The translations under genes and the position numbers were made by a program. From a virus: a DNA stretch of 64,000 bases. The notes under the pieces were generated by a model. It saw nothing but the letters and a program-made list of their open reading frames with translations, was not told the origin of the DNA and did no database searches. Shown here in pieces: positions 8,790-29,040 of the stretch (the first letter of the stretch is position 1; each line of letters starts with the position of its first letter). Where the stretch lies: positions 1 through 64,000 of IMG/VR virus record IMGVR_UViG_3300046005_001038; one strand, written 5' to 3'.

Positions 8790-8821
8790 GTAGTCGTTTT
8801 GTGATTGAAAACAATAAAGAG

Positions 8822-8850
8822 TTGCTTCAATTACAAGCATGATGTAGAAT
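8822..8850 (+). promoter_or_regulatory. sigma70-type promoter for the second GIY-YIG gene
   Basis: TTGCTT (8822-8827), a 17-nt spacer and TAGAAT (8845-8850). The distance from the -10 box to the first base of the leader element (4 nt between) is identical to the one at 85-118. Confidence 0.55.
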
Positions 8851-8854
8851 TTGT

Positions 8855-8904
8855 ATACGGTCTAGTTCGACGGGACGAAACGGCTTTAGCAACCTTGACC
8901 GTAT
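8855..8904 (+). promoter_or_regulatory. Structured leader element, copy 2 (upstream of homing endonuclease)
   Basis: P1 ATACGGTC (8855-8862) pairs with GACCGTAT (8897-8904) around a 34-nt interior. Inside are hairpin TTCG/CGAA (8866-8869 with 8876-8879) and a hairpin with loop CTTTAGCAA (8884-8892) closed by GG/CC. Relative to copy 1 the P1 stem is entirely different yet still paired, and the loop-closing pairs are inverted. This is covariation supporting a real RNA fold. The following ATCACAATAACCTTAATG and GAGGAATCAA parallel the other copies. Confidence 0.6.
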
Positions 8905-8951
8905 TTGTAAATGCTAATCACAATAACCTTAATGCTATAGAGGAATCAAAG

Positions 8952-9821
8952 ATGTCAGATGAAAGAAATCATTTAATTTATAAAATAAAATCTCCTTCCA
9001 GTAAAGTTTATATTGGACAAACAGTGAATTTAAAACAACGACTTAATAATCATAAAAATAAAAGGTCGTCTTGCATTGCTATTTCAAATGCAATTCAAAA
9101 ATACGGTTGGGATAACATGACCGTTGAAGTATTACATGAAAATCTTACATTAGATGAAGCAAATGAATTAGAAGAATTTGAAATAGTAAATAATAATTCT
9201 TTAATTCCTAACGGATATAATATGCTTACAGGTGGAGCAAATTCTTTACACACGGAAGTAACAAAAAATAAAATAAGCATTGCTAATAAAGGAAAAAAGC
9301 GTTCTGAAGAACATTGTAAACGAATGTCTGAAATAAATACTGGTAAGAAAATCCCACCTGAAATTATTGCGAAGATAGTTGCTACTAATACAGGAAAAAA
9401 ACGAACTCAGGAGTTTAAAGACGCAATGTCCAAACTTCATACTGGAAGAATCATAAAACCTGAATCTATTGCAAAAGCTAAGGAAACTAGTATTAAAAAC
9501 GGAGGATATACTCCAACACAAGATACGATTGATAAATTTAAAACGTCTTATTTTAAGGTCAATTTCATTAAAGAATATGAACTTTATAAAAGTAAAATAG
9601 ACACACTCGATAATAATATAAGTTTTTCAGCAAGAAAATTTGCTGATTGGTTAGGTGTCAATAGTAAAACAGTTCTTAAGAAAATAGCAGATGGACTATT
9701 CGACGGTTTACAAACTGCTAGAGATAATCATAATAGAAAGTTTTATAATTTTACTAAACCTATAATTGTAAATTATTATGAGTCAATGCACACAAAATTA
9801 TTCGGAGATAAAAATGTCTAA
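8952..9821 (+). CDS. GIY-YIG homing endonuclease with NUMOD3 and C-terminal HTH
   Basis: 289 residues from ATG 8952, preceded by GAGGAATCAA. An upstream in-frame TTG at 8805 would run through the structured leader and is rejected. Residues about 4-90 are the GIY-YIG domain (LIYKIKSPSSKVYIGQTVNL). NUMOD3-like repeats follow (EVTKNKISIANKGKKRSEEH...). The C-terminus (FSARKFADWLGVNSKTVLKK) looks like a helix-turn-helix specificity domain. It lies between the nuclease and helicase genes and its stop overlaps the helicase start, so it is a free-standing mobile gene in the replication module. Confidence 0.9.
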   Translation: MSDERNHLIYKIKSPSSKVYIGQTVNLKQRLNNHKNKRSSCIAISNAIQKYGWDNMTVEVLHENLTLDEANELEEFEIVNNNSLIPNGYNMLTGGANSLHTEVTKNKISIANKGKKRSEEHCKRMSEINTGKKIPPEIIAKIVATNTGKKRTQEFKDAMSKLHTGRIIKPESIAKAKETSIKNGGYTPTQDTIDKFKTSYFKVNFIKEYELYKSKIDTLDNNISFSARKFADWLGVNSKTVLKKIADGLFDGLQTARDNHNRKFYNFTKPIIVNYYESMHTKLFGDKNV

Positions 9822-20158: not shown

Positions 20159-20266
20159 ATGAGTAATGTTTTTGGTATTATCGGAGAACTGATGGAAACA
20201 GCCATCGTAATTTATTTGTGGTACAGAGTAGAAACTTTAACAAAACAAATCGAGGAAAGAAAATGA
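20159..20266 (+). CDS. Very small membrane protein
   Basis: 35 residues after GAGGAGATAG. A hydrophobic stretch (FGIIGELMETAIVIYLWY) precedes a charged helix. The stop overlaps the next start (ATGA). Function unknown. Confidence 0.5.
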   Translation: MSNVFGIIGELMETAIVIYLWYRVETLTKQIEERK

Positions 20267-20943
20267 GTAAATTTGAACAAGTCGTCACAATTAGACGCGA
20301 AAGCGTTAAAGAGTTTTTAACTGATGGTTTCACAGTTATCGATGGTAATACTGAAGAAGTAAAAGCAGAAATGTTTAATAAAGTGTTTAAACCAGAAGAA
20401 ATCGTCATCGGTTCACGTCATTGGTTAGAACAAGATGAAAATTTCTTACAGATTATTCCATCTATTGTGTTTAGAAAACCTGATGGTACGGTGTTGCATT
20501 ATCAGCGCACCCAAGGCACGGGTGAAGGTAGATTACTTGGTAATTACAGTTGTAATATAGGCGGTCACATAAACGTCAACGATTTAGATACGAGTATCGA
20601 TAGAATTAGTCCGATTTTGACAGTCTGGAATAGCATTTTCAGAGAAGTAGCGGAAGAACTTGGTGTTGCTTTAGATTTGGTTGCAAATGTCAATTATGAC
20701 GAAGATTACAATGAATTTAGAGGTATTATTTACGATTCAAGTAATTCTGTCGGAAAAGTGCATATCGGGCTGTTATTTGTGTTCGATGTAGCGCAAGATT
20801 GTGAGTTCAATTCGGGTATTGCTGAATCAGAAGGAATGTTACTTAAAGGTTGGTATTCACCAGCTACGCTTCTACATCATCACGATATTGATGCGATTAA
20901 CTTAGAAAACTGGGCTAAGATTGTGTTAGAATACTTAGCATAA
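20263..20943 (+). CDS. NUDIX hydrolase-like protein
   Basis: 226 residues from ATG 20263 after GAGGAAAG. It has NIGGHINVND and then IFREVAEELGV, the G and REUXEEXGU parts of the NUDIX box, but with a longer insert than the standard box between them. Proteins of this type hydrolyse nucleoside diphosphate derivatives. It may remove damaged nucleotides or act on capped RNA or NAD. The substrate cannot be predicted. A terminator follows. Confidence 0.75.
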   Translation: MSKFEQVVTIRRESVKEFLTDGFTVIDGNTEEVKAEMFNKVFKPEEIVIGSRHWLEQDENFLQIIPSIVFRKPDGTVLHYQRTQGTGEGRLLGNYSCNIGGHINVNDLDTSIDRISPILTVWNSIFREVAEELGVALDLVANVNYDEDYNEFRGIIYDSSNSVGKVHIGLLFVFDVAQDCEFNSGIAESEGMLLKGWYSPATLLHHHDIDAINLENWAKIVLEYLA

Positions 20944-20954
20944 ACAAATAGTTA

Positions 20955-20999
20955 TTGATAAATTCGACGAAGTGTGGTATGATTCTTCGTCGAATTTTT
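20955..20999 (+). promoter_or_regulatory. Combined promoter and terminator before the lysis operon
   Basis: TTGATA (20955-20960), a 17-nt spacer and TATGAT (20978-20983). A perfect 13-bp inverted repeat (20960-20972 with 20985-20997) followed by TTTTT covers the spacer and places the -10 in its loop. The element could end the NUDIX transcript and start the lysis transcript. The palindrome could also be an operator. Confidence 0.6.
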
Positions 21000-21018
21000 A
21001 CGTTTAAAGGAAAGTAAA

Positions 21019-21486
21019 ATGCCATTAACCACAGTTCAAGCAAGCAAATTAGAAGAACACGAAGGATTTAGAAGTAAAGTTTATAAATGTACAGCAGGAT
21101 TGGATACAATTGGGATTGGATATTGTATTCCAGCGAATCCGCTAAATTTATCTAAAGCAGAAATTAAAACGCTGTACGATGTAGGTATCACACATGATAA
21201 AGCCATTTATTATTTAAAAATGGTCTGTAATCAAATAGAAGCTAAGTTAAGTCGAGAGCTTGATTGGTATGATGACTTAGACTCAAACACAAAGTATGTG
21301 TTAATTGATATGGCATATCAAATGGGTGTAGCGGGATTACTCGAATTTAAACAGTCGTTGAAATTAGTTAAAGCGGATAAATATAATGATGCTGCTAAAG
21401 AAATGCTACGCAGTAATTGGGCTAAACAAACGCCTAATCGAGCTAAATCTGTGACCGATATTTTGAAATCAGGTAAGATTCGATAA
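21019..21486 (+). CDS. Endolysin, GH24-type lysozyme with Glu-Cys-Thr triad
   Basis: 155 residues after AAAGGAAAG. The active site is EGFRSKVYKC...T with E15, C24 and T30, spaced E-8-C-5-T as in P21/P22-type lysozymes (Cys in place of the T4 Asp). It cleaves the peptidoglycan glycan backbone. No classical signal peptide is visible, so a holin is expected. First gene of a four-gene overlapping operon. Confidence 0.9.
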   Translation: MPLTTVQASKLEEHEGFRSKVYKCTAGLDTIGIGYCIPANPLNLSKAEIKTLYDVGITHDKAIYYLKMVCNQIEAKLSRELDWYDDLDSNTKYVLIDMAYQMGVAGLLEFKQSLKLVKADKYNDAAKEMLRSNWAKQTPNRAKSVTDILKSGKIR

Positions 21487-21914
21487 TGGCTAGAGAACCT
21501 TGTTCTCCCCCACAATCTGACGACTTAATTGCTAGGCATCAGTTTTATGCACAAGTAAGTTGTCAGTTACACGAATCTAATGTTGACATCGATGGTTTAG
21601 GTCGAAAGACCTCTGTGATGTTTGAACGGCTCGATAACATTAGAGAAGTTGTAAAAATGTACGCGACTAGGGGTAATACCATTATCGCGTGCATTTCTGT
21701 GTTGTGGATGCTTTTAGGTAGCGGCTTGACGATGTATGTGCAATCAGTTATTGAATCTGCAAAACTAACTGTAGAAGCTGTACATGACCTCGAAAAACGA
21801 ATGACGTTAGTTGAAGCTACAAATAACGCTAATTCACCTGCCATTGAAAGTATTGAGAAAATAAAACGGAATTTAGCTACCCTTCAAAACGAAATGGATG
21901 AGAAACATCAATGA
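21486..21914 (+). CDS. One-helix membrane protein, possible holin or lysis accessory
   Basis: 142 residues, start overlapping the endolysin stop (TAATGG). A single hydrophobic segment at about residues 63-85 (NTIIACISVLWMLLGSGLTM) separates a polar N-terminal half from a coiled-coil-like C-terminal half (VHDLEKRMTLVEATNNANSP). The position directly after lysozyme suggests a lysis role. A type III-like holin or inner spanin is possible. No lipoprotein outer spanin is seen. Confidence 0.65.
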   Translation: MAREPCSPPQSDDLIARHQFYAQVSCQLHESNVDIDGLGRKTSVMFERLDNIREVVKMYATRGNTIIACISVLWMLLGSGLTMYVQSVIESAKLTVEAVHDLEKRMTLVEATNNANSPAIESIEKIKRNLATLQNEMDEKHQ

Positions 21915-22336
21915 AAAAGATAGCTCTGATTTTAATGCTCGTTATTAGTTCTCCAATAATGAGCGATACTGTTCCAATTACCAGTTCTGAATTTGCTGTA
22001 TCGAGTATATCTCGATTTGAATTAAGACGTTTGTATTTTATGAAAGACAAATGGGCTGATGGTGTTGGTATTGTGACACTTTATCAACGACCACCACATA
22101 GTTCAGAACACATACGATTTATTAGAGAAACCTTAGAATTAACACCAGCAACATACTATAGAGAATTAGCGTTATCTGTTAATGCAGGTAAAGGTTCTAC
22201 TATTACCATTGTTAATTCTGATGAAGAAATGCTTGACAAAGCAACGGCAAAAGATAATGCGATTGGTTATTTAGATGTAGACACAATTATTTTTACATTA
22301 GATAAAACGACTAAATTACTCAAGGTAACTGACTGA
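21911..22336 (+). CDS. Small PstS-like periplasmic phosphate-binding protein
   Basis: 141 residues. A signal peptide (MKKIALILMLVISSPIMS) is followed by a PstS-like fold signature: VSSISRFELRRLYFMKDKWA, an HIRFIRETLELTPATYYREL helix region, and NAIGYLDVD at the end. This is the short stand-alone PstS-like family found in proteobacteria. It overlaps the membrane protein gene (ATGA) and the porin-like gene (TGATG), so it is made with lysis genes. It may bind phosphate or another oxyanion in the periplasm. The role in infection is unknown. Confidence 0.75.
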   Translation: MKKIALILMLVISSPIMSDTVPITSSEFAVSSISRFELRRLYFMKDKWADGVGIVTLYQRPPHSSEHIRFIRETLELTPATYYRELALSVNAGKGSTITIVNSDEEMLDKATAKDNAIGYLDVDTIIFTLDKTTKLLKVTD

Positions 22337-23436
22337 TGAAAAAAACATTAGCTGTTTTACTTTTAACCTTTACCTGTGGTGTACAAGCAAACGATAATTT
22401 AAGAGCCAATTTATCTGGCTTTATTTCAGCTACTATGTTTAGCGACCCTGATTTCTACGAGAATACCGCTAAAGGTGCAGTAAATATAGACTTAGCTAAA
22501 GGCTCTTATTTATTTCATACACAATTAGCATCATCTACTGATTTTCCAACGGAATCGTTAATTAGTCGAATGACGGTTGAGAAAGTATTTGGTGTAGCAG
22601 ATGGTCACGAAATGTCGATTGTTGTCGGACGATTTCCTAGATTATACTCATTCTTTAATGCGATAACCGATAATGTAGGTACATCTGGTTTAGCGATGTT
22701 GCCGTTATCACAATATAAGCGACGTACAGTCGCTGATAGTAGGATGATTTCTGGTGATGGAATTATGATGAGTTATCGATTTCATCAAGATGATTATTCG
22801 ATAGAATTCACCGCAGACGTTAGTCAGGCTTCAAAAATAAACAATTGTATGATTCACATGGAGTTCTACAACAAACCTTGTGGTTATGCGTATGGTTTTA
22901 AATCTGATAATCCGAACTATGATTTCGGGATAATATATGAAGACCCGACACTCAAAGTCCTCTTAGCTGTCATTGAGATTGACATCAAAGCGTATATCAC
23001 AAATAGAAAAGACCCTGTTGCGTTGGCAACATATACAGTTGGTAATAGATGGCAACACAAACATTATAAGTTTGGTTTTATTAAGCAGCTCGATGATTGG
23101 TGGGTTCAAGCTGAAGGGACTTACAGAAACATTTTAATGGCTGGTGTTGGTAAGGATTATGTACCTTACAATCAGCAAATAGGCGGTGACTTTGTGGTCG
23201 GTTATCATGTTAATGACGACATTTCAGCTTACGTTGGTTATTCACTCAGTCGTTCTGCTATCGGGGATGGTAAATTTGACCTAGATGATAATTATGTTGG
23301 AGCAACTTACGCTAACGGGGATGGTTTTACTTATTCTTTGGAGTATCACATTGGTCGTGGTAGAGATTGGAATAGGTATTTGTCACCTGATGATAATTGG
23401 TCATCTGCTGTATTTTCAATTTCAAAACAATTTTAA
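22336..23436 (+). CDS. Porin-like outer-membrane beta-barrel protein
   Basis: 366 residues. A signal peptide MKKTLAVLLLTFTCGVQA ends with the AxA-like VQA site. The mature part alternates short polar/aromatic strands (GNRWQHKHYKFGFIKQLDDW, VGYHVNDDISAYVGYSL) and ends in AVFSISKQF. A C-terminal Phe after alternating hydrophobics is the BAM recognition pattern of outer-membrane proteins. It is the last gene of the lysozyme/membrane/PstS-like operon. Possible roles are altered nutrient uptake, receptor change or superinfection control. Confidence 0.8.
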   Translation: MKKTLAVLLLTFTCGVQANDNLRANLSGFISATMFSDPDFYENTAKGAVNIDLAKGSYLFHTQLASSTDFPTESLISRMTVEKVFGVADGHEMSIVVGRFPRLYSFFNAITDNVGTSGLAMLPLSQYKRRTVADSRMISGDGIMMSYRFHQDDYSIEFTADVSQASKINNCMIHMEFYNKPCGYAYGFKSDNPNYDFGIIYEDPTLKVLLAVIEIDIKAYITNRKDPVALATYTVGNRWQHKHYKFGFIKQLDDWWVQAEGTYRNILMAGVGKDYVPYNQQIGGDFVVGYHVNDDISAYVGYSLSRSAIGDGKFDLDDNYVGATYANGDGFTYSLEYHIGRGRDWNRYLSPDDNWSSAVFSISKQF

Positions 23437-23450
23437 TTTTAAATTTCCTA

Positions 23451-23488
23451 TTGAACCCTAGTTTATTATTGTGATAGACTAGGGTTTT
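23451..23488 (+). terminator. Terminator with overlapping promoter-like boxes
   Basis: AACCCTAGT (23454-23462) pairs with ACTAGGGTT (23478-23486), then TTAC. TTGAAC (23451-23456) and TAGACT (23475-23480), 18 nt apart, overlap it. The loop sequence ATTGTGATA recurs in terminators at 45171-45201 and 62676-62707 (read on the minus strand). Confidence 0.6.
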
Positions 23489-23643: not shown

Positions 23644-25817
23644 TGTCTAAATATATCAGCTCATTTGACCTAGCGCACTATTCAGGGTTCACACATGATG
23701 AAATTATTGATTTGTTAATTGATAACGATATTGTGTCGGATTCAGAATCAATCCCTAAAATATCACAATCTGAATATGAATTGATTTCAGATGTATTTGA
23801 TGAATCATCACAATCGAGAATAAACACTTATTTTGGCGTTCAGACGGACGTAAAACTTCAGTTTGACCTATTAGGAGGGATAACTGAAATCAAGCCTAGA
23901 AAGCCTAAAACAAAGGTTATTCCCACTCGTACTTGGGAAGCAGATGACTACTTACCTAACTTAGAAGAATCGAAGAATTATCAATATAAGTTCTTCACAG
24001 ATTTATCACGACCGCAAGATGAAGAATTGATATTTGATATTGAGGTTTACGGTAATTATTTCTTAATTATGTTCTTGGGTTATCGCACGGGTAGATGTTG
24101 GTATTTTGAGAAGACTGAAAGTCAAGAACTAGACGTGCAGGGTGTGAAATGGTTTATCGAGAATCACACCCTTATTTCATTTAACGGTATTAAATTCGAT
24201 TTACCGTTATTAGCGATAGCGTTAAATAACGCTAACTTTGATGATTTGTGGAAAGCAACAAAGATGTTGATTCCTGAAGATAAGGGAGAGTTTGTTAGAT
24301 ATTGGGAGATTCCTAAAAAATTTGGAGCAACTCAACTCAAAACTGACCATATTGATGTAATGGAAGTTGCGCCTGGTGTTGGTGTAGGTTTAAAGACGTA
24401 TGGCGCAAGAATTGGCGTTCCAAACCTACAAGACCTTCCTTTCAAAGTTGGGATAGATTTAAACGGTGACCAAATTTCTATTGTGCGAAGATATTGTTTG
24501 AATGACGTTGAAACGACAGCGTATCTATACACGGCTTTGGCTGAAGAAATTGCTATTCGCAAAAGAGCATCGTTAAAATATAAATTAGATTTACGCTCTA
24601 AATCTAATGCACAGTTCTCAGAAGCTGTGATTGTGAAATGTTGTGAGGACGCTAATAAGTCAAAGGTAGCTAGAACTAAAAATGAAGCTCCTGCATTTGT
24701 CACATACACAACGCCAAGCTATATTTCATTTAAATCAGAATTATTAAAAGATGTGTTGAAAGATATTGAAAACTATAAGTTCACTATTGAACATGGTGAG
24801 GTTCAACCTGGAATTTTGTCAGCATTAAAAATACGCATGGGTCAATCTGTGTACACAATGGGTTTGGGCGGATTGCACTCTACTGAGAAGTCAGTATCGC
24901 ATTATGCGAATGACGGTTATATTCTAATGGATGTGGATGTTCGCGCCTACTATCCGAACATGATGTTGTTTCAACAAATGTTCCCTGAAAAACTTGGAAA
25001 AGTGTTCATTAAAGCATTTGAATCTTTAGTCAGAGAGCGAGAAGATGCTAAAGCTAAAAAGATTAAAGCTGTAGATGCAATGCTCAAGGTAGTAATCAAT
25101 AGCGGGTTTGGCAAGATGCTTCAGCTTGTCAGCCCGCTATTTGCTCCAAAACTAGGTATTCAAACAACTGTTGGTGGACAATTATCTATTTTAATGGCGA
25201 TTGAAATGTTAGAATTAGCTGGTCACAGTGTAATCAGTGCAAATACTGACGGCATTGTTATTAGATTGAAAGCAGAAGATTATGATTCGGTTTGGGAAAT
25301 GTTACACGAGTGGGAAGAAAAAACAGGTTTGATTTTAGAAGAAACTCAGTATAAATCTACACACAGTCGGGATGTGAATTGTTACTTCGCGGTTAAGTTA
25401 GATGGTTCTGTGAAGCGTAGAGGGTCTTTCGGTTTAGACATTACTGAAATGCTGAAGAAGAATCCTGTAGGTCTTGTTTGTACCGATGCTGTTGCAAATT
25501 GGCTGAGTGATGGTTCAGATATTGAATCTCACATTAGAAATTGTAAAGATGTGAAGAAGTTCTTAGTGGTTAAGAATGTCACAGGTGGGGCAGTGAAAGA
25601 CGGCGAATACTTAGGAAAAACTGTTCGTTTCTATCACAGTACATCAACAAGTTCTGCGATTCATTATGCTAAGAATGGCAATACTGTAGGAACAAGTGAC
25701 AAATGTCGCCCAATGATGAAATTAACTAAAGACATTCCGATTGATTTGGATTACAATTGGTACATAGACGAAGCGTATAGAATTTTGAAAAATATAGGAG
25801 TGGATTGTGATAACTAA
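23643..25817 (+). CDS. Family B DNA polymerase
   Basis: 724 residues. Exonuclease motifs: FDIEVYG (about 130), SFNGIKFDLP (about 180) and YCLNDVETT (about 284). Polymerase motifs: MDVDVRAYYPNM (motif A, about 432), KVVINSGFGKM (motif B, about 484) and SANTDGIVIR (motif C, about 535). The first Asp of the usual DTDS is Asn here, while the second catalytic Asp is kept. It is the replicative polymerase with proofreading. No terminal-protein gene is recognised. An HNH gene overlaps its end. Confidence 0.93.
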   Translation: MSKYISSFDLAHYSGFTHDEIIDLLIDNDIVSDSESIPKISQSEYELISDVFDESSQSRINTYFGVQTDVKLQFDLLGGITEIKPRKPKTKVIPTRTWEADDYLPNLEESKNYQYKFFTDLSRPQDEELIFDIEVYGNYFLIMFLGYRTGRCWYFEKTESQELDVQGVKWFIENHTLISFNGIKFDLPLLAIALNNANFDDLWKATKMLIPEDKGEFVRYWEIPKKFGATQLKTDHIDVMEVAPGVGVGLKTYGARIGVPNLQDLPFKVGIDLNGDQISIVRRYCLNDVETTAYLYTALAEEIAIRKRASLKYKLDLRSKSNAQFSEAVIVKCCEDANKSKVARTKNEAPAFVTYTTPSYISFKSELLKDVLKDIENYKFTIEHGEVQPGILSALKIRMGQSVYTMGLGGLHSTEKSVSHYANDGYILMDVDVRAYYPNMMLFQQMFPEKLGKVFIKAFESLVREREDAKAKKIKAVDAMLKVVINSGFGKMLQLVSPLFAPKLGIQTTVGGQLSILMAIEMLELAGHSVISANTDGIVIRLKAEDYDSVWEMLHEWEEKTGLILEETQYKSTHSRDVNCYFAVKLDGSVKRRGSFGLDITEMLKKNPVGLVCTDAVANWLSDGSDIESHIRNCKDVKKFLVVKNVTGGAVKDGEYLGKTVRFYHSTSTSSAIHYAKNGNTVGTSDKCRPMMKLTKDIPIDLDYNWYIDEAYRILKNIGVDCDN

Positions 25818-26351
25818 ATTGAAACTACCAAGTCAAGAATATCTTAAAGAATGTTTTGATTATAATGAAGAAACAGGCGAATTAACTTGGAGAGTCAGAC
25901 CTCTAAGTCATTTTAGAGAGGATTGGATTGCTAAAAGATGGAACGGTAAGTTGGCTGGAAAGATTGCAGGAACTTATGATAAAAAAGGATATGTTCAAAT
26001 TAAGATAAATAAAATTTTTTATAAAAAACATAGGTTGATATGGGTGATGTTTACAGGTTCTGACCCTGGAGATTTAGAGATTGACCACATCAATCTAATA
26101 AAAGATGACAATAGATTTGAAAACCTGAGACTTGCAACAGGTAGCGAGAATGCTTGTAATCAGAAAGCGAGGGTTACAAATGTTAGTGGTGCAAAAGGAG
26201 TTTCTTTTGATAAAGAAACTGGTAAATGGAGAGCTTCCGTGATGAAACAAGGAGTTATCCATCATCTAGGCAGTTCAAAACAATAGCTCTTGCGGAAGAA
26301 GCTGTGAACAAAGCAAGGTCTGTTTTGCATGGACAATTTAACAACTCATAA
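25807..26351 (+). pseudogene. HNH-AP2 homing endonuclease, frameshifted
   Basis: GTG 25807 follows AGGAG (25796-25800). The first frame gives 159 residues: KLPSQEYLKECFDYNEETGE, an HNH core (LEIDHINLIKDDNRFENL) and the start of an AP2-type DNA-binding domain, then stops at HHLGSSKQ. In the -1 frame the expected AP2 end continues (TIALAEEAVNKARSVLHGQF) to TAA 26349-26351, matching the ends of the genes at 60141 and 62819. The break lies at TCAAAAC near 26275. It is either a 1-nt deletion or a -1 slip at A-AAA-C. It is inserted behind the polymerase. Confidence 0.8.
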
Positions 26352-27580: not shown

Positions 27581-27706
27581 ATGAAATATCCAGATTATTT
27601 GTTTGAAGGTCGTTGTGTTACCACTACTTTCGATAGACAACTTACGTTCATGCAATGTGTAGGCGTTGTATTATTCACGACACTCGTATTAGTATTGTTT
27701 GTATAA
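27581..27706 (+). CDS. Very small membrane protein, possible lysis partner
   Basis: 41 residues after AAGAGAA. A polar N-terminus precedes a C-terminal transmembrane helix (FMQCVGVVLFTTLVLVLFV). It sits directly before the second lysozyme gene, as small holin-type proteins do. No sequence match proves this. Confidence 0.5.
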   Translation: MKYPDYLFEGRCVTTTFDRQLTFMQCVGVVLFTTLVLVLFV

Positions 27707-27719
27707 AAGGAGAATCATT

Positions 27720-28184
27720 ATGATTTCAGCAGCAATAGCATTATGTGTAAGTTCAGTAATTTCGCACGAAGGCTTTCGTCACAAGCAATATAGAGATACA
27801 AACGGATGGAGTATTGGTAATGGTTATTCGCTTACACAAAATCCGTTACACCTAGACAAGAAAACCATAGCAAATTTTAAACGATATGGTATATCAGAGC
27901 TTCGTTCACATCAATTAGTAGCAAAGGTATGCTCACAAAACAAACAGCTCTTAGAATCAAAATATGAATGGTTTAATAACCTATCTGATGCGAGAATGAT
28001 GGTTCTTCTCGATATGAGTTATAACTTAGGTAGTGTGGATGAATTTGATAAAACGCTTAAATATATTAGAAGCGGTAGAACTACAATGGCTTCTGTTGAA
28101 ATGTTAAATTCACGTTGGGCTAGACAGTGTAAAAATAGAAGTGCTGAACTATCGTTTGTAATGAAAACAGGTAAGCTAATATAA
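27720..28184 (+). CDS. Second lysozyme (GH24-like) with altered active site
   Basis: 154 residues from ATG 27720 (AAGGAGAATCATT before it). It is similar along its length to the lysozyme at 21019, but the active-site region reads EGFRHKQYRDTNGWSIGNG: E17, D26, then Ser31 at a spacing one residue shorter than the usual Thr. The N-terminus (ISAAIALCVSSVIS) is hydrophobic up to the catalytic Glu, unlike the first copy. It may be a weakened or altered lysozyme, or a protein anchored by its N-terminus. Confidence 0.8.
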   Translation: MISAAIALCVSSVISHEGFRHKQYRDTNGWSIGNGYSLTQNPLHLDKKTIANFKRYGISELRSHQLVAKVCSQNKQLLESKYEWFNNLSDARMMVLLDMSYNLGSVDEFDKTLKYIRSGRTTMASVEMLNSRWARQCKNRSAELSFVMKTGKLI

Positions 28185-28199
28185 GTTCATTTATATGTG

Positions 28200-28208
28200 T
28201 GGTATAAT
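28200..28208 (+). promoter_or_regulatory. Extended -10 promoter for the GIY-YIG gene
   Basis: TGGTATAAT (TGN-TATAAT) lies 31 nt before the start codon at 28240. The -35 region is poor, as is usual for extended -10 promoters. Confidence 0.45.
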
Positions 28209-28239
28209 ATATTTATATCACACTTTTATACTATTAACC

Positions 28240-28986
28240 ATGACTAATAAAATTTATTGTATTTATATGCACACAAGTCCAAGTGGTAAAAGTTATATTG
28301 GACAAACTTGTAATTATAAAAAGAGATGTAATGACCATCAGAACGAAAAGAACAAATGCACAGCTTTTAAAAACGCTATTGATAAATACGGCTGGGATAA
28401 TTTTACACATGAAATTTTATTAGATGGATTAACTTTAGATGAAGCTAATTACTGGGAAGAATTTTGTATAAAAGAGTTTAATACTTTTGGTGAAAATGGA
28501 TATAATTTAAGAACTGGAGGGTTAAATAGTAATTTATCAGAAGAAACAAAAAATAAAATATCAATTGCTCTAATAGGTAGGGTTTTCTCAGAAAATCATA
28601 GGGAAAGCCTATCTATGGCGGTAACAGGTGTAAAACGAGAACCTCTTTCTGAAGAAAGAAAGCAATGGTTATCGAACTTTAATAAAGGTAAAACATTATC
28701 CTTTGAACATAGGAATAAGATAGCTACTGCAAATACAGGGAAGCAAAAATCAGATGAATGTAAGTTAAAATATAGTAGAAATAGGTATATTAAAACGTAT
28801 GAAAAGATTATAGCCAATCCTGATAAAATTTATGGTGTTAATAAAGGTAGCGAAAATTGTTACCGTGTAATGATTAGCATTGATGGAAAAACTGTCTACT
28901 TAGGTTCTTTTATGACAGAGCAAGCAGCGTTTGATGTATATAAACAAAAAGCATATGAGAGATATTTGGAAGCGTTGAAAGAATAA
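28240..28986 (+). CDS. GIY-YIG homing endonuclease with NUMOD3 and AP2-like end
   Basis: 248 residues from ATG 28240. The upstream in-frame start at 28195 precedes the promoter box and is rejected. The GIY-YIG domain is at residues about 4-90 (IYCIYMHTSPSGKSYIGQT). NUMOD3 repeats follow (EETKNKISIALIGRVFSENH). The C-terminus (NCYRVMISIDGKTVYLGSF then AAFDVYKQKAYERYLEAL) resembles an AP2-type DNA-binding domain, which is more usual in HNH endonucleases. Last plus-strand gene before the convergent terminator. Confidence 0.88.
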   Translation: MTNKIYCIYMHTSPSGKSYIGQTCNYKKRCNDHQNEKNKCTAFKNAIDKYGWDNFTHEILLDGLTLDEANYWEEFCIKEFNTFGENGYNLRTGGLNSNLSEETKNKISIALIGRVFSENHRESLSMAVTGVKREPLSEERKQWLSNFNKGKTLSFEHRNKIATANTGKQKSDECKLKYSRNRYIKTYEKIIANPDKIYGVNKGSENCYRVMISIDGKTVYLGSFMTEQAAFDVYKQKAYERYLEALKE

Positions 28987-29040
28987 ATCAAGTCGAGCAA
29001 AAGAGTTATCACAGATAATGAAAACAGGATTGGTATAGAA

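Follow-up and report, generated by a model that had tools for sequence, protein, structure and literature searches.

A probable phage copy of a bacterial porin and short-PstS sensing pair inside a lysis gene unit

The lysis unit and its genome context

The window, meaning the whole 64,000-nucleotide stretch of DNA that was analyzed, belongs to a virus record of 79,832 bases with tape-measure and portal genes of the siphovirus type. Four genes form one compact unit in it, closed by a strong intrinsic terminator: lysozyme 1, a one-helix membrane protein, a short secreted protein with the fold of a PstS lobe, and an outer-membrane porin-like beta-barrel (Table 1). A preliminary description had placed these genes, with overlaps of 1-4 nt, in a unit of lysis genes behind one promoter-like site, and the open reading frames are confirmed. 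Its statement that the last two are "fused" into the lysis operon was misleading, because the proteins are separate and the genes merely overlap. Both the PstS-like protein and the barrel begin with signal-peptide-like N-termini.

Table 1. Features of the lysis unit and of other parts of the window
Feature	Position	Strand	Remarks
Promoter-like TTGATA-17-TATGAT	20955-20983	+	TG extended -10; directly 5' of lysozyme 1
Lysozyme 1	21019-21486	+	PF00959, E = 8e-12; no signal peptide or hydrophobic segment
One-helix membrane protein	21486-21914	+	TM segment 65-85 predicted; overlaps lysozyme gene by 1 nt
Short secreted PstS-lobe protein (VpvB-type)	21911-22336	+	overlaps one-helix gene by 4 nt
Outer-membrane porin-like beta-barrel (VpvA-type)	22336-23436	+	C-terminal Phe; overlaps PstS-like gene by 1 nt
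Strong intrinsic terminator	23453-23487	+	3' of barrel gene; closes the unit
Second lysozyme	27699-28184	+	N-terminal hydrophobic segment (SAR- or signal-like); PHROG lysozyme matches; outside the unit
Inverted repeat followed by T	about 20961-21000		overlaps the promoter-like site
241-aa protein	20218-20943		directly upstream of the unit; weak NUDIX similarity (PHROG 8902, unknown function)
Tape-measure protein, 3086 residues	34620-43880		internal transglycosylase/endolysin-like stretch at about 830-1130
Homing-endonuclease-like proteins (HNH, NUMOD3, GIY-YIG)	25807-26286, 217-924, 8805-9821		one of them immediately follows the gene for DNA polymerase
Gene direction changes from + to -, with change of GC skew sign	about 28000-29000		resembles a convergent junction between an early/replication half and a structural half

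The promoter-like site is a consensus match only, and such matches are no more frequent in the region than in shuffled sequence. A promoter-like site with 17-nt spacing and the TG also precedes the same lysozyme gene in two related phages, L003 and L089, and terminators are found at the equivalent place in both (3582-3613 in L003; 2985-3015 in L089, 3' of the gene for an XhlA-like protein). Rfam and tRNA scans found nothing. Another contig from the same sample, L056 (IMGVR_UViG_3300046008_000572), encodes a portal that is 100% identical, and lysozyme 1 and the pair of secreted proteins were not found on it; it probably represents part of the same phage or of one very close to it.

Conservation in a sister phage

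L003, a 25.7-kb IMG/VR contig, has all four genes in unchanged order. Because the cassette is present there gene for gene and the differences fall at third codon positions (by codon position 1/2/3, 28/14/75 for the PstS-like gene and 47/14/182 for the barrel gene), the cassette is far from chance and the genes at 21019-23436 are real. Among all proteins shared by the two phages the barrel ranks first in identity (88%) and the PstS-like protein second (79%), with the TM protein at 66%, lysozyme at 61% and DNA polymerase (PolB) at 54%. Divergence at 4-fold sites is 0.62-0.70 for DNA polymerase and the genes of the cassette alike, and therefore all five are of equal age and the gap in identity reflects purifying selection. 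By this measure of the two sequences, the PstS-like protein and the barrel are under strong purifying selection, stronger than that acting on DNA polymerase. Recent exchange as the source of the high barrel identity was considered and rejected, because 4-fold sites are no less diverged in the barrel gene than in PolB. The lineage with the TM-PstS-barrel arrangement is known from two phages only, that of the window and L003.

The extreme constraint on the barrel argues that its function is important to the phage. One candidate function is outer-membrane remodelling, in which the PstS lobe would deliver or open the barrel, and the barrel would block superinfection, mask or replace a receptor, or prevent loss of progeny onto debris. 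A secreted porin-like barrel under such strong constraint would suit this role. However, from residue 96 on the predicted loops are conserved like the strands (changes at 5 of 108 loop and 12 of 163 strand positions), unlike a surface driven by antigens or phages, and remodelling leaves unexplained why the barrel has a near-obligate small periplasmic partner. On balance we consider it unlikely.

Folds of the two secreted proteins

The AlphaFold2 model of the PstS-like protein (pLDDT 86.5) matches PstS structures in Foldseek, so that the fold proposed in the preliminary description is borne out for one PstS lobe only (TM-score 0.63 by the query and 0.34 by the target). The canonical SGT loop is absent from the phage sequence, and so is the two-lobe arrangement of PstS around a phosphate site. 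The barrel model is less certain (pLDDT 64.5), and its best Foldseek matches are general 16-strand porins, with OprP and OprO lower; these matches uphold the earlier description of a porin-like barrel.

Sequence searches with the two proteins gave little. Neither has a usable match in Pfam, PHROGs or NCBIfam, a search of the PDB by sequence returned nothing meaningful, and tblastn against INPHARED with either protein gave no match. Scans of IMG/VR with the PstS-like protein, the barrel, the family alignments and queries from phage NCTB (see below) recovered the sister contig only; these scans use short exact patterns, by which distant relatives are missed. The BFVD structures contained no phage protein that stood out as a short PstS lobe.

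A bacterial family of sensing pairs

Bacterial relatives of the pair came from a genome scan whose query alignment had been started from weak plasmid matches. It yielded 46 loci where genes for short secreted PstS-lobe proteins adjoin genes for barrels with an aromatic C-terminal residue. When 395 genomes from a single order were searched, 179 had a related gene (some may be full-length PstS), and at 29 of the 30 best loci, a few of whose genomes were already in the 46-locus set, the barrel adjoins the short PstS. A gene pair of this kind, which the preliminary description had suggested looking for in host genomes, does exist in bacteria. In the GGDEF/EAL-linked subfamily the barrel gene lies 3' of the PstS gene (12 of 12), followed by a dCache_3-GGDEF-EAL gene where the flanks are longer; in the other subfamily the barrel is usually 5' of the PstS gene, with MCP or hybrid-kinase genes nearby. 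The partners of the bacterial pair are signal transducers (dCache-GGDEF-EAL, MCP, hybrid kinase), and in the loci that were read no genes for a Pst ABC transporter were noticed.

A pair of this type has been described in Vibrio cholerae, where VpvA is a porin, VpvB a periplasmic binding protein and VpvC a diguanylate cyclase (PMC12456836). VpvA and VpvB contribute to c-di-GMP and rugosity, and the two-gene operon vpvAB is widespread and was proposed to be a stand-alone sensing unit to which the cyclase was linked later (PMC12456836). The phage proteins have the features of the broad family, namely a short secreted PstS lobe (mature length about 110-130 residues), an adjacent aromatic-ended barrel and homology of this barrel to the host barrels of the same subfamily. 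The region 21911-23436 is very probably a phage copy of the bacterial porin and short-PstS sensing pair, of the VpvA/VpvB type and from the GGDEF/EAL-linked subfamily, the assignment to VpvA/VpvB being made from the published description (PMC12456836) and not from V. cholerae sequences. No GGDEF domain was found in the window phage, the L003 phage or NCTB, no MCP domain in the window phage or NCTB, and the diguanylate cyclase gene that completes the three-gene VpvABC operon is absent from the phage. A limited search of the open-access literature found no report of phages carrying a porin-periplasmic sensing unit. What is new is the setting, phage-borne, enzyme-free and within a lysis unit; the type of bacterial sensing pair is already known.

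The subfamily assignment draws on both proteins. A profile built from bacterial sequences only matched the phage PstS-like proteins with E values of 3e-19 (window) and 4e-21 in a search of 2 targets, and the profile of the GGDEF-linked subfamily gave 7e-14 (window) and 5e-15 at Z=4000; the phage proteins score higher with this subfamily than with the other. At 17 residues that distinguish the subfamilies, the window protein has 6 of the GGDEF-linked type and 3 of the other, and L003 has 8 and 2. For the barrel, hhalign against the GGDEF-linked host barrels gave P 85% (E 6e-6, 326 columns), and against those of the other subfamily P 0.9%. HMMER with a host barrel profile (Z=4000) gave E values of 1e-4 (L003) and 0.0085 (window), moderate evidence by itself for a link to the GGDEF-linked subfamily. 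Because the type-ii barrel profile also matches the other porin subfamily, HMMER scores alone were not used here, and the barrel was assigned from hhalign, gene order and its PstS partner. No close bacterial relative of the phage barrel was found in bacterial genome contigs or in the 395 genomes of one order.

These results bear on the earlier suggestion that the pair is a set of auxiliary genes for phosphate uptake, a PstS with an OprP-like porin. The PstS fold is in its favor, and pstS is a known phage auxiliary gene (PMC9958192, PMC10987575). But the phage protein has one lobe only and lacks the SGT loop, OprP and OprO are not the best structural matches of the barrel, the bacterial partners are signal transducers, and Pst ABC genes were not noticed beside them; the uptake role is accordingly highly improbable.

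The window lineage has nonetheless moved far from its family. In both the window and L003 proteins Trp86 is replaced by Leu and Pro98 by Ile, within a stretch (W..xF[ST]G....P) whose Trp and Pro are otherwise invariant in the family, and the TPG before AIGY, kept by nearly all bacterial members, is also lost. The Trp/Pro stretch is a conserved feature with no known role in defining function. The stem leading to the window lineage is very long, at about 7 changes per site, after which the protein is frozen. Because the family-invariant Trp and Pro are gone, a loss read here as divergence inside the family, the window protein is, on sequence grounds, a divergent VpvB-type protein rather than "a VpvB".

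A second phage with a pair

A Thalassotalea PstS from the other subfamily, used as tblastn query, led to jumbo phage NCTB, in which the genes for a 151-residue short PstS and a 395-residue barrel overlap by 4 nt (BN7874_180/179, LT598654.1). The NCTB pair falls with the other, MCP/kinase-linked subfamily (8e-20 and 3e-36 at Z=4000). It keeps the family Trp, Gly and Pro, and in part the set of residues lost from the window lineage. The annotated start of BN7874_180 is about 200 nt late; the full open reading frame has a signal peptide (L093 5866-6321; LT598654.1 139911-140366). No lysis, one-helix or partner gene was recognized adjoining the NCTB pair, and no portal is shared by NCTB and the window phage. 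Because the two phages are unrelated and the NCTB pair belongs to the other subfamily, phages most likely captured the pair at least twice, apparently from different branches.

The replaced slot in the lysis unit

Related phages that lack the pair indicate what the cassette has replaced. In L088, L089 and L090 the same lysozyme is followed by an XhlA-like protein and then DNA polymerase; the XhlA-like protein has an N-terminal coiled coil and a C-terminal helix, and is so called from its layout, as it has no family match. In the window and L003 its slot holds the one-helix protein, the PstS-like protein and the barrel. In L089 the promoter-like site and the terminator bound lysozyme and the XhlA-like gene, and since slot and bounds are the same, TM-PstS-barrel behaves as a three-gene replacement in one transcription unit. 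Lysozyme 1 is 52-73% identical in related phages without the pair, a range that includes its value in L003. The second lysozyme is also present in L003, L088, L089 and L090; the phage group seems to carry two lysozymes, of which the first alone is inside the unit studied.

The one-helix protein consists of a first part of about 64 residues, one hydrophobic segment and a predicted periplasmic part of about 57 residues, with a weak charge bias. Its C-terminal tail, a region picked after looking, is its best conserved part, with 23 of 26 residues identical in L003. It has no family match in Pfam, PHROGs or NCBIfam, and no other phage match in INPHARED or in IMG/VR, where the scan missed even the sister copy.

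The place in the lysis unit raises the possibility that the pair serves envelope breakdown, replacing spanins or disrupting the outer membrane at lysis, the more so as family searches recognized no spanins near the unit. Related phages without the pair are likewise without a recognized spanin at this locus, and therefore that absence says little. A porin barrel and a PstS lobe resemble no spanin, and neither leader has the lipobox of a spanin pair. We judge a role in breakdown very unlikely.

Possible roles of the pair

The reading preferred here, held tentatively and at somewhat less than an even chance, is that the pair has been rewired as an envelope relay of barrel, PstS lobe and one-helix protein that tunes lysis. 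The pair would have been cut off from its cytoplasmic signalling enzyme and rewired to the membrane protein of the lysis unit. The barrel would sample a signal in its own outer membrane or outside the cell, which the PstS lobe in the periplasm would pass on. The receiver would be the product of the preceding gene, the one-helix membrane protein, which by predicted topology may be a holin of the T4 type or a holin accessory, and the relay would tune when or how lysozyme is released. The losses of Trp86, Pro98 and the residues before AIGY on a long stem, followed by freezing, form the pattern expected of a changed partner. The one-helix protein is proposed as receiver because it is the sole new partner encoded with the pair, has a conserved periplasmic tail and a predicted topology like that of the T4 holin. 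Against the holin reading, no family match marks it as a holin. The more specific claim, that the phage times lysis by reading a signal at the cell surface through a sensing unit rewired to its own membrane protein, we regard as doubtful.

NCTB counts against the relay. Its pair stands apart from recognized lysis or one-helix genes, so such a receiver is not a condition for the pair to be useful, and this speaks for an effect on the outer membrane or on host receptors. In the latter case the phage PstS lobe and barrel would act, as agonist or decoy, on host dCache-GGDEF-EAL, MCP or kinase receptors, changing c-di-GMP, motility or biofilm. The bacterial pair feeds such receptors, judging by gene context; contributions of VpvA and VpvB to c-di-GMP and rugosity, the frequency of related genes in the order searched, and the retained family residues of NCTB point the same way; and phage proteins targeting host sensor kinases exist (PIT4, PMC10714779). 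However, the window lineage has lost the most invariant residues of the family, and expression from a lysis unit would be late for a signalling benefit. We consider such manipulation of host receptors somewhat unlikely for the window phage.

Were either the relay or the action on host receptors true, a phage could read or fake envelope signals, timing lysis or bending the c-di-GMP and chemotaxis signals of its host. With no enzyme attached, the phage pairs also provide a natural way to test whether vpvAB works as a sensing unit in its own right, as has been proposed.

Comparison with known systems

Among the closest known systems are the chromosomal short PstS-barrel-dCache_3-GGDEF-EAL operons of Colwellia, Halomonas, Nitrosomonas and others (L036, L048, L035). 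Gene order is the same, the pairs have in common the subfamily-type residues Met44, Trp48, His67, Met107 and Leu121, and the barrels share a motif from GR to DG and a C-terminal W...F. The phage copy differs in being about 13-28% identical to these, in its loss of the invariant Trp/Pro and in having no GGDEF-EAL gene. VpvABC and vpvAB resemble it, by description, in that a porin gene adjoins the gene of a short periplasmic binding protein; the phage pair lacks the cyclase, has the order PstS then barrel, and lies inside a lysis unit. NCTB and the window both have a short PstS overlapping a Phe-ended barrel with no GGDEF or MCP, but differ in subfamily, in the phage that carries the pair and in its distance from recognized lysis genes. 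Phosphate uptake by PstS and OprP shares with the phage pair a PstS lobe fold and a porin-like barrel, and differs in that the phage has a single lobe, no phosphate loop and no transporter.

For the proposed relay, the relevant comparison is with T and RI of phage T4, in which the one-helix inner-membrane holin T is regulated by the secreted periplasmic protein RI (PMC11413866). The layout is alike, a one-helix protein with a periplasmic domain together with a secreted periplasmic regulator, and homology is not claimed. No sequence similarity was found between the two systems, and that of T4 has no barrel partner.
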